Shown: in pieces, positions 19,321 to 59,858 of the stretch
Numbering within the stretch: the first letter of the stretch is position 1
Layout: every line of letters starts with the position of its first letter
Assembly (NCBI GenBank): GCA_024405015.1
Contig: JAKSPE010000012.1
Coordinates: forward strand, 1 to 64,000
Source of the DNA: Sphaerochaetaceae bacterium
Lineage (GTDB): Bacteria; Spirochaetota; Spirochaetia; Sphaerochaetales; Sphaerochaetaceae
DNA length: 64,000 nt
Direction of reading: 5' to 3'
Program-made: the position numbers and the translations under genes
The notes under the pieces: generated by a model
The model's database searches: none
The model's input: only the letters and a program-made list of their open reading frames with translations
Told to the model about the DNA's origin: nothing

Positions 19321-20073
19321 ATGAAACGTTTTACTTTCTTTATGGTCATTCTCCTTTGTGCTGCTTTTGTGCATGCGGATGGCAGTAGTTTGCCTACACT
19401 GGGTAGTGCGTCAAAGGTTATTACAGCCTACAAGAGAAAGATGACAGACGATATTCCAGAAGCGGAAGTTCATCTCCGCCTTTTGGATTCCAATGAAAAT
19501 GAGTTCTTCTTGAATTCTGATGTGGACATCCCTCTGAATGCACGAAATATTGAATATTCTGCTCTATCATGGGTTTTTAGTGGAAACATTTATGGTCCGT
19601 TGACTGTGACTTACACATTCAATCCTATGTATGATGAAGGTATTACAACAACGACTGCCACTAAGATCATTCCGTATGATGTTACATTGACACATACACA
19701 GACACGAATAGGAAATACTCCAATTGCAGTCAATAAGGCTTCTGGTGCTACTTCTTATATGACAAATTCGTTTACTACATATAAGTTCAAGTATGCTGAT
19801 AGCGTTACTGGGGTTGGTACAAAGAAGAGCATTACAACTAGTGCCCAATCCATTAGTGTTGTTTATGACATGAGTGCAAATACTGTGGTTAAGACTGCAG
19901 GAGATGCCGATGCGAACTATACACTTGATGTTTGTGACTACTGGAACCGATATGGTTTTGCTTTGGTTACATTGAAAATCACTCCAGAAGGAACTCGAGT
20001 CGGAAATACAACAAAGTTTGACGATGGTGTGTATTATGCAAATGTTTCTGTTGAAATAAGTGTTAATCGTTAG
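19321..20073 (+). CDS. Secreted beta-rich protein 2 of the four-gene cluster
   Basis: A 250-residue protein with a signal peptide cut near VHADG. The mature part is Thr/Ser-rich and beta-strand-like, and ends with GVYYANVSVEISVNR, matching the shared terminal motif (Gly-x-Tyr, then a strand of alternating hydrophobics). There is no lipobox, so it is periplasmic or surface-exported. It follows gene 1 by 9 bases with an AGGAGGAG ribosome site, which supports one operon. Function unknown. Confidence 0.8.
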   Translation: MKRFTFFMVILLCAAFVHADGSSLPTLGSASKVITAYKRKMTDDIPEAEVHLRLLDSNENEFFLNSDVDIPLNARNIEYSALSWVFSGNIYGPLTVTYTFNPMYDEGITTTTATKIIPYDVTLTHTQTRIGNTPIAVNKASGATSYMTNSFTTYKFKYADSVTGVGTKKSITTSAQSISVVYDMSANTVVKTAGDADANYTLDVCDYWNRYGFALVTLKITPEGTRVGNTTKFDDGVYYANVSVEISVNR

Positions 20074-20088
20074 GAGAGGAGGTAGGAT

Positions 20089-20700
20089 ATGAAAAAAGCG
20101 ATTTCCATTTTGATTCTTCTCTTTGTTTCATTTGTTGTTTGTGCAGAAGTATCTCCTCCTTATTCCCACTATATGATTGGACATGTTGATTCTGCAACGG
20201 ACTTTTCCGTCTCGATTCTGGAGGAGGCTCTTCCGTTTGACTTGGATGGATCCGATGTGGCATATAATCCGAATTATCAGACACAGATTAGAGGACTTAG
20301 AATCGGCTCCTATTCTCTTCTTTCCAATTCTGGAAACTTTGAGCTGCTCATTTCCCATTCGAAACTGACATTACGCGATGCTACAAGAGCCAATGATGAA
20401 GGAACTCTTTCTCAAATCGATTACAGACTGTATGTGATTGCCGATTATCGCAATACCAAATTCCTTTCCTGTTTGAGTGATTCCAATGCAAGCAATCCGG
20501 ATTCTGCCAGCAACCGTGTCCGTGTCGCGGGAGATAATCCTGATGTTTGGCCGTCTGGAGCATCTATGTGTTCCATTGTCAACCAGAGCATCTATGTTAG
20601 TCTCGATGACAATACACGTGGTTCGACCGCTGCTACGATTGCGGATCTGAAGGGTGGAACATATGAGTCCACAATCTACTTTATGTTGAAGGGACAGTGA
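20089..20700 (+). CDS. Secreted beta-rich protein 3 of the four-gene cluster
   Basis: A 203-residue protein with a signal peptide (MKKAISILILLFVSFVVCA) cut before EVSPPYS. A Cys lies at -2 from the cut, but no lipobox is formed. Two Cys in the mature part (LSCLSD and SMCSIV) might pair. The C-terminus GGTYESTIYFMLKGQ fits the cluster motif. GAGAGGAGGT precedes the ATG with good spacing. Its stop codon shares a base with the start of gene 4. Function unknown. Confidence 0.8.
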   Translation: MKKAISILILLFVSFVVCAEVSPPYSHYMIGHVDSATDFSVSILEEALPFDLDGSDVAYNPNYQTQIRGLRIGSYSLLSNSGNFELLISHSKLTLRDATRANDEGTLSQIDYRLYVIADYRNTKFLSCLSDSNASNPDSASNRVRVAGDNPDVWPSGASMCSIVNQSIYVSLDDNTRGSTAATIADLKGGTYESTIYFMLKGQ

Positions 20701-58621: not shown

Positions 58622-58996
58622 ATGGACAAGGTAAGTCTGAAGATCAAGCTCTATCTGGAAAACGAGAATGACAAGTTCATGGGAATCGGTGTGCTGTGGC
58701 TTTTGCAGAAGGTCGATGCGACAGGTTCCTTGCGAGCAGCTGCAGCCGAGCTTGGGATCTCCTATTCCAAGGCCTTTCGGATGGTGGAGAATCTTGAGGC
58801 GGCACTGGGTGTCGATGTTCTTGAAAGACGAAAGGGTGGAGTCAATAGAAGTGGCGCCAGCCTCACACCGTTTGGGCAGGAGTTCATCGTCCTGTATGAC
58901 GACTTTCAGAAAACGTGCAAAAAGCTGCTGGAAGATCCGTTTGACACCTTTGAGAAAAGACTCAAAACCTTGGTTTCCGCATCGTTGGAAGGTTGA
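58622..58996 (+). CDS. ModE-type winged-helix regulator (DNA-binding domain only)
   Basis: A 124-residue LysR/ModE-like winged helix: LLQKVDATGSLRAAAAELGI, then SYSKAFRMVENLEAALG, then a basic wing (ERRKGGVNRSGASLTP). It lacks the C-terminal molybdate-binding domains of E. coli ModE, as do many short members that rely on another protein or on unknown ligands. AGGAGG precedes the ATG. It lies in an operon with ligA, about 2 kb from the molybdenum-hydroxylase-like genes, which is suggestive but not proof that it regulates them. Confidence 0.8.
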   Translation: MDKVSLKIKLYLENENDKFMGIGVLWLLQKVDATGSLRAAAAELGISYSKAFRMVENLEAALGVDVLERRKGGVNRSGASLTPFGQEFIVLYDDFQKTCKKLLEDPFDTFEKRLKTLVSASLEG

Positions 58997-59089: not shown

Positions 59090-59118
59090 TTGTCTTTTTT
59101 TACTAATGCTAATATATT
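59090..59118 (+). promoter_or_regulatory. Promoter of the candidate small RNA
   Basis: TTGTCT (59090-59095), a 17-base spacer and TATATT (59113-59118). The expected start is at about 59125. Confidence 0.7.
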
Positions 59119-59124
59119 TGTTGC

Positions 59125-59196
59125 ATACGAGATGTAAATCTCAACCTCCTTTTGTTCCCCCATGGTTTGACCTCCTTTTTTCCATGGGGTTTTTTA
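59125..59196 (+). ncRNA. Candidate small RNA with two anti-Shine-Dalgarno segments
   Basis: The predicted transcript of about 72 bases runs from a promoter-defined start to a terminator. It begins with a 5-bp hairpin (GAGAT-GTAA-ATCTC, 59130-59143). An unpaired AACCTCCTTTTG (about 59143-59154) follows. The terminator stem CCCCATGG/CCATGGGG has a loop containing GACCTCCTTTTTT. Both segments are complementary to ribosome binding sites of the AAAGGAGGT form, and match the 16S 3' end CACCTCCTTT. No ribosome site or start codon is present on this strand. An RNA blocking translation starts, or one titrated by mRNAs, is inferred. On the opposite strand the same bases could encode a 27-residue peptide, which is the main alternative. 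Confidence 0.6.
59158..59196 (+). terminator. Rho-independent terminator of the small RNA
   Basis: A perfect 8-bp stem CCCCATGG (59158-59165) / CCATGGGG (59182-59189) is followed by a T-run (59190-59196). The 16-base loop contains the second CCTCCTTT. Confidence 0.8.
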
Positions 59197-59387: not shown

Positions 59388-59858
59388 ATGAAGCAGAGAT
59401 ACAACAGACTTACCGTCATCAAGGAACTCATCAAGAAGAATCGAATCGATAACCAGGACACCTTGCTCAACCTCCTGAAAGAAGAGGGGTACGATGTCAC
59501 ACAGGCAACCCTTTCCAGAGACCTCAAGATGCTGAAGGTCGGCAAGATCTCAGACGGTTGGAGCGGCTACTACTATTCTTTGCCTGACAACGACGTTGTC
59601 GCAGAGTCCGAGAAGAGCTATATCCAGGACGTCCGACGAGGCATCATCTCCCTTGAATTCAGCGGAAACATTGGTGTCATCAAGACCCGTGAAGGCCATG
59701 CAAACAGTGTTGCAGTCGGACTTGAAGCTCTTGGACTTCCGGAGATTCTGGGAACCCTTGCCGGAGACGATACCATTATGGTGATTCTCCGAGAAGGCAT
59801 GACAAAGGAAGACCTTCTTGAGAGCTTCAAATCAAGAATTCCTGAAATAGAAGACTGA
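59388..59858 (+). CDS. argR: Arginine repressor ArgR
   Basis: An arginine-responsive DNA-binding hexamer that controls arginine synthesis or use. The 156-residue protein has a winged helix (YDVTQATLSRDLKMLKVGKI) and the C-terminal arginine-binding/oligomerization domain (TREGHANSVAVGLEALGLPE, GTLAGDDTIMVILREG). No arginine genes are in this window, so its targets lie elsewhere. Ribosome site AAGGGA. It is preceded by the candidate small RNA on the same strand and followed by pgi with its own promoter. Confidence 0.93.
   Translation: MKQRYNRLTVIKELIKKNRIDNQDTLLNLLKEEGYDVTQATLSRDLKMLKVGKISDGWSGYYYSLPDNDVVAESEKSYIQDVRRGIISLEFSGNIGVIKTREGHANSVAVGLEALGLPEILGTLAGDDTIMVILREGMTKEDLLESFKSRIPEIED

Follow-up and report, generated by a model that had tools for sequence, protein, structure and literature searches.

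A conserved small RNA of the Spirochaetia with two anti-Shine-Dalgarno segments and a probable link to an extracytoplasmic function sigma factor

Does a short stretch of DNA in a Sphaerochaetaceae genome encode a small RNA and, if so, what might that RNA do? The stretch, positions 59090–59196, lies in the window (the 64,000 nucleotides analysed, positions 1 to 64,000 of the forward strand of contig JAKSPE010000012.1, assembly GCA_024405015.1), where a model given only the letters and the open reading frames, here called the sequence-only reading, had proposed a promoter and a compact RNA with two segments complementary to the Shine-Dalgarno (SD) sites of mRNAs. We conclude that 59125–59196 (+) is almost certainly a real small-RNA gene and, judged by sequence comparison, a free-standing gene of a new, previously undescribed family that spans the Spirochaetia. 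Two copies of the ribosome's anti-SD sequence within the RNA, together with a stress-sigma promoter ahead of it in many spirochaetes, suggest that it would turn off the synthesis of proteins from selected messages under stress.

A conserved RNA gene and its covarying structure

The elements of the locus are collected in Table 1; the 5' end of the RNA was placed from the −10 element and its 3' end from the U-tract. The window RNA folds with an energy of −19.5 kcal/mol, a stability equalled by one of 200 shuffles, and CCTCCTTTT is present at 59145–59153 and 59171–59179 with no other copy in the 64 kb (0.61 expected). Taken alone, the promoter pattern, with its spacer of 17 nucleotides (nt) between TTGTCT and TATATT, is at chance level in the window (2 matches vs 2.6 expected), and a terminator scan passed over the hairpin of the RNA by reason of its 16-nt loop. 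The comparative data settle the window elements as real, because the spacer and the RNA are kept while the flanks diverge.

We searched 41 genomes with 121 bases of the window locus and found the RNA in nine of ten same-genus genomes at 93–99% identity over ~70 nt from near 59129, with diverged DNA both up- and downstream. Nine same-genus loci, of which the window's is one, were read by eye; they have TTG in the −35 element and a −10 element rich in T and A, with a 17-nt spacer in between. Built on the 55-nt core of the RNA, a covariance model detected it in 120 of the 139 genomes of the window's family, exactly one copy in each (67 of the 75 good genomes; 18 of the 22 genera), and a second model, built from more distant sequences, gave matches in 216 of the 395 genomes of the Spirochaetia, which represent 84 of 133 genera. 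Among the hosts in the contig collection are Sphaerochaeta halotolerans, Sphaerochaeta sp. S2, Bullifex porci, a Pleomorphochaeta metagenome-assembled genome, Candidatus Ornithospirochaeta and Candidatus Aphodenecus. The CCUCCUUU segments are nearly invariant across the RNAs, and the predicted promoter and terminator of the RNA are conserved at the sequence level.

The terminator stem takes different sequences among relatives (CCCCAUGG, CCCCCUGG, CCCCUCAGGG, CCCCACAUAGCGG and GCCUCGGUAGG) around a constant loop, UUURACCUCCUUUU. Across 22 distinct sequences, nine of its ten pairs show two-sided changes and 98.2% of pairs are standard; pairing was at most 66% when the partner was slid, and none of 500 shuffles scored as high. 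The sequence of the 5' hairpin varies between genera while the hairpin itself is kept, and within one related genus two of its six pairs carry compensatory changes (94% paired; six sequences only). When 14 RNAs were folded individually, most had segment 1 unpaired and segment 2 in the terminator loop, so that the window RNA and most relatives are predicted to hold the accessible segments expected of an anti-SD small RNA; some of the folded RNAs pair one or two segment-1 bases, and L077 shows minor loop pairing. Segment 2 in the terminator loop is the only block invariant in the most distant set, and because the most distant forms retain only the loop segment, that loop is probably the main seed.

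Both segments reproduce part of the ribosome's own anti-SD sequence. In complete relatives the 3' end of the 16S rRNA reads GGCTGGATCACCTCCTTT (CT comes next in the one read further), and its tail GGAUCACCUCCUUUCU has ACCUCCUUU in common with both; the first 9 nt of each segment (ACCUCCUUUU) are identical to ACCUCCUUU, with one extra U following. The tail was taken from relatives, the assembly of the window's genome being without a 16S gene.

On these data the sequence-only reading has fared well at the locus itself. Promoter, 5' hairpin, terminator and segments lie where it had placed them, with the spacer and ~70 nt kept in same-genus loci, and its compact plus-strand RNA with two anti-SD segments is supported by sequence conservation and by the polarity of the terminator, which favours the plus strand. 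The covariance search of relatives that it had proposed returned the family and class counts given above. It had counted against itself any relatives that keep the flanks and lose the segments or stems; the opposite was seen, with the flanks lost and CCTCCTTTT and the stems kept.

Table 1. Features of the small-RNA locus and its neighbours in the 64-kb window
Feature	Position	Strand	Basis
−35 hexamer TTGTCT, sigma70-type promoter	59090..59095	+	TTG kept with 17-nt spacer in nine same-genus loci
−10 hexamer TATATT	59113..59118	+	TAnnnT, or close to it, at the loci of the genus
Small-RNA gene, ~72 nt	59125..59196	+	Conserved in genus, family and class; folds with z = −3.2
5' hairpin GAGAU-GUAA-AUCUC	59129..59142	+	Fold; compensatory changes in related genus
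Anti-SD segment 1, ACCUCCUUUU, unpaired	59144..59153	+	Fold; nearly invariant in family
Terminator hairpin, 8-bp stem CCCCAUGG/CCAUGGGG, 16-nt loop	59158..59189	+	Fold, covariation
Terminator stem arms	59158–59165 with 59182–59189; loop 59166–59181	+	Fold
Anti-SD segment 2, ACCUCCUUUU, within terminator loop	59170..59179	+	Most conserved part of the RNA
Intrinsic-terminator U-tract	59190..59195	+	T-run follows the stem in almost every relative
Upstream neighbour, ModE-like HTH_1 protein, synteny marker	58622..58996	+	Pfam PF00126
Downstream neighbour argR, outside the RNA	59388..59858	+	Pfam PF01316/PF02863

Some variation in copy number and length was also seen. Two copies occur in several genomes from outside the family (L262/L263, L267/L268, L253/L254, L255/L256), and some second copies (L256, L268) retain the loop segment only. 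In Sphaerochaeta-like genera (L015, L051, L073–L075, L085) the 5' part of the RNA is ~60–70 nt longer, with conserved AGAAAGAGAACGAC and GGAUUUUUUCUAACC, and may serve a second function. There was no match in the 1.1-Mb f24 genome G211 or the 1.2-Mb f19 genome G156, which may point to a loss of the RNA in strongly reduced, host-bound spirochaetes. Six matches in other classes of the phylum were weak (E 3e-4 to 6e-3) and were taken as chance; pattern matches in Omnitrophota, WOR-3, Uzinura, Microcoleus and others were unsupported by the covariance model where checked.

Promoter types and the ECF sigma-factor motif

Outside the window's family most copies of the RNA are preceded by TGTAAC or TGTTAC-N17-GTT. 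The combined motif, TGTWAC-N17-GTT, lies upstream of the RNA at 21 of the 25 best non-family loci and at 22 of 40 weaker ones, counts in which several loci are repeat entries of the same genome; its chance rate is 0.49 per 64 kb, or ~0.02 per locus. It was found at the RNA in none of 88 loci of the window's family and nowhere in the 64-kb window. By eye, TGTAAC is spaced at 16 in three of the f24 loci and at 15 in another. Copies L245–L248, L250 and L252, from complete 2.7–2.9 Mb genomes of another family, show a TGTAAC promoter at a spacing of 15–16, not 17.

The same motif accompanies a gene for an extracytoplasmic function (ECF) sigma factor. Seven of 20 ECF loci examined carry it in the short stretch that separates cysS from ecf, as does the window's own genome (TGTAAC-N17-GTT at L294, G000:C19, near 2000–2025 on the minus strand), making eight genomes. 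In both loci checked with Pfam the ECF sigma factor is followed by a zf-HC2 protein, each with a hydrophobic stretch, noted by eye, that is typical of membrane anti-sigma factors; at L294 the upstream cysS was confirmed. Read from the sequence, this arrangement is the one expected of an ECF factor that controls its own gene. Because the promoter motif of the RNA is that of the autoregulated ecf gene, the RNA would probably belong to the ECF regulon in those species. ECF control of the RNA in much of the class seems to us likely, and ancestrally the RNA was probably in the regulon of the cysS-linked factor.

Relatives outside the window's family thus have the ECF-type promoter at the RNA, and members of that family do not. 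There the ECF factor appears to have kept its own promoter (L294), the RNA promoter having apparently been replaced by a sigma70-type one. We rejected presence or absence of the ECF gene as the cause of this difference; since ECF region-4 matches occur in both groups, the difference lies in the promoter itself. With this switch, Sphaerochaetaceae would offer a clear-cut natural example of a small RNA rewired from stress-induced to sigma70 control. Both the class-wide distribution and the sigma-factor link are beyond what a reading of the single sequence could see.

Proposed function, targets and rival explanations

From these sequences we infer that the RNA is expressed and pairs with messages in trans. 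The best explanation overall, and a probable one, is an Hfq-independent anti-SD RNA that would block translation of selected mRNAs; that anti-SD pairing is its main mode is likely. Either ACCUCCUUUU segment, in the single-stranded stretch or in the terminator loop, would mimic the 16S anti-SD tail and pair with the SD region of an mRNA, so that ribosome binding would be blocked without Hfq. The Hfq domain PF17209 was found in none of 61 genomes, with control genomes positive, although the window genome is ~85% complete and an atypical Hfq could escape; Hfq dependence would call for a host that encodes the protein. In most families outside the window's own, the ECF-type promoter would probably make the RNA the repressive arm of an extracytoplasmic stress response, and in the window's family that promoter would have been swapped for the sigma70-type one. 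We are evenly balanced on the full account, in which a Spirochaetia-ancestral RNA serves as the translation-repressing arm of the cysS-linked ECF response, was rewired to sigma70 in Sphaerochaetaceae, and is an independent, Hfq-free analogue of sigmaE with RybB and MicA.

Several observations weigh against selective anti-SD repression. GGAGG-N4-11-ATG occurs 25 times in the window vs 20.3 in shuffles, slightly above chance; AGGAGGT-N3-9-ATG occurs 52 times genome-wide vs 33 for the reversed control, an enrichment that is not clear; and AAAGGAGGTYR is not enriched before ATG in ten same-genus genomes. Identity of the segments to the 16S tail makes complementarity non-diagnostic of targets. In the folds predicted for L018 and L233, segment 1 has some of its bases paired or sits in a small loop, and the distant copies L249, L251, L256 and L258–L260 retain the terminator-loop segment only.

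These counts bear on the targets that the sequence-only reading had named, which were many genes in general and parC and the third secreted-protein gene in particular. Pairing with "many" genes is unproven on these counts, the short sites being in slight excess and the longer matches not enriched. AGGAGGT sites do exist at parC (27345) and at the secreted-protein gene (20089), but they are no evidence of targeting, since an RNA motif identical to the 16S tail will fit any good SD. Among 30 AGGAGGT-ATG sites examined, at least three are not gene starts, having in-frame stops. Targets of extended complementarity were considered and dropped: most AAAGGAGGTYR-ATG matches are the minus strand of the RNA gene itself, and the roughly one further site in each genome is no more than the control gives. 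The likeliest target group would be a modest set of mRNAs with strong SDs.

Other roles can be imagined for an RNA that copies the ribosome's tail. It could be a global decoy of that tail, competing for SDs generally and lowering SD-led initiation under stress, which would suit the exact copying of 9 nt of the 16S 3' tail by both segments, the two nearly invariant copies per RNA and the promoter, which across much of the class is probably a stress one. We regard this as unlikely: only ACCUCCUUU is copied and the remainder of the tail is not, a small RNA competing with ribosomes would need very high abundance, and strong SDs are few in the window's genome. Era recognises the 3' end of 16S rRNA, and a mimic of that end could instead bind protein, titrating a ribosome-maturation factor such as Era. 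Segment identity to the tail and a degree of conservation above what simple seed pairing may need would fit, but the RNA does not keep GAUC, the part of the Era site 5' of ACCUCC, and reads UUURACCUCC or YAACCUCC; what is conserved instead is a U-rich 3' side that 16S is without. We consider this reading quite improbable.

The position of the window RNA between two same-strand genes, and of its relatives 3' of a co-oriented pfp in several genera, would agree with a role as leader or attenuator for the gene that follows, argR in the window, or with a mere terminator of the upstream operon. A leader function is disfavoured because the downstream neighbour changes (argR, HAD-type, convergent recG or pgi); the RNA also has its own conserved promoter, and a bare terminator would not preserve two invariant 10-nt segments, so that we rate this possibility marginally below the protein-binding one. 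Scarcely credible is a function of the minus strand, where AGGAGGTCAAACCATG, present at 59161–59176 (−), would be the SD and start codon of a short protein: its ATG is due solely to the CCATGG stem of this genus (CTGGG or GCGG in other genera), no T-run follows on that strand, and stem covariation and T-run polarity favour plus. A conserved small open reading frame within the RNA was likewise rejected, the only one being AUG-GUU-UGA in this genus's stem, which is not kept elsewhere.

Relation to known RNAs and genomic neighbourhood

Translational repression of selected messages by anti-SD pairing has parallels among described RNAs. No Rfam 15 family matched the window or eight related loci at the gathering threshold; the best sub-threshold match was LhrC (RF00616), whose 31 bits fall short of the gathering score of 110 needed for membership. 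Nor is the RNA described in the open-access literature searched, most subscription papers being outside that search. The sequence-only reading had known of no spirochaete example, and none came to light in either source.

LhrC of Listeria carries redundant CU-rich sites in a single-stranded stretch, the terminator loop and loop A; it blocks translation of its target mRNAs, Hfq is dispensable and cell-envelope stress induces it (PMC4132741). The window RNA likewise has sites both in an unpaired stretch and in the loop of the terminator, with none in the 5' hairpin loop; dispensability of Hfq is proposed for it too, as is envelope stress for its relatives outside the window's family. In contrast, the LhrC motif is of the CUCCC/UCCC type and is not a copy of the 16S tail, LhrC has five copies under LisRK, and no phylogenetic link joins the two.

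In the alpha-r14/NfeR1/cuckoo (CcsR) RNAs of Alphaproteobacteria an ultraconserved anti-SD motif is repeated in unpaired regions while the stems differ; NfeR1 works without Hfq and has redundant motifs, and the CcsR promoter is that of the stress sigma factors RpoHI/RpoHII (PMC10746234, PMC10253847). The repeated motif, the variable stems and, outside the window's family, the stress-sigma promoter recur here. Cuckoo RNAs, however, present CCUCCUCCC in the unpaired region of each of three hairpins, and CcsR, which is linked with a DUF1127 gene, arises by processing of a longer transcript, whereas the window RNA has one motif-free 5' hairpin, one linker copy of ACCUCCUUUU and one loop copy. Cuckoo RNAs are thus an analogue and not the same family, as the sequence-only reading had held. 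The neighbours inspected were ligA, ModE-like, argR, pgi, pfp and recG; no search aimed at DUF1127 was made.

FoxI/FoxJ of Fusobacterium nucleatum are the repressive, noncoding arm of a response governed by the ECF factor sigmaE and have a C-rich seed (PMC11005410), and MicA/RybB of enterobacteria form such an arm as well. They differ from the present RNA in showing no homology of sequence or structure to it, and its ECF dependence is proposed from promoter motifs and is not expected in the window's family. By analogy, the best explanation is that the RNA would work as LhrC, alpha-r14/cuckoo and FoxI/FoxJ do while standing outside the LhrC and cuckoo families. If it is indeed an ECF arm, stress-induced C-rich or anti-SD translational repression arose separately in spirochaetes, fusobacteria, firmicutes and proteobacteria. 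A 2022 review gives six distinct annotated small RNAs for the spirochaete phylum, and an RNA conserved in a large part of the class offers a direct entry into spirochaete post-transcriptional control.

Gene order around the RNA in the window is ligA, ModE-like, RNA, argR, pgi, with argR starting ~190 nt beyond the terminator. ModE-like, pfp and RNA follow one another in L077, and pfp precedes the RNA in L075 and L059; in another family the order is pfp, RNA, pgi (L215), and pgi lies near the RNA in L222. The genes pfp, pgi, recG and ligA were named from their sequences by eye. Judged from these sequences, the pfp, pgi and ModE-like arrangements are one syntenic series linking the families. Elsewhere in the window, at 19321–20700, two adjacent genes encode proteins of 250 and 203 amino acids with signal-peptide-like N-termini and have GGAGG-type sites upstream; their products are possibly surface proteins.
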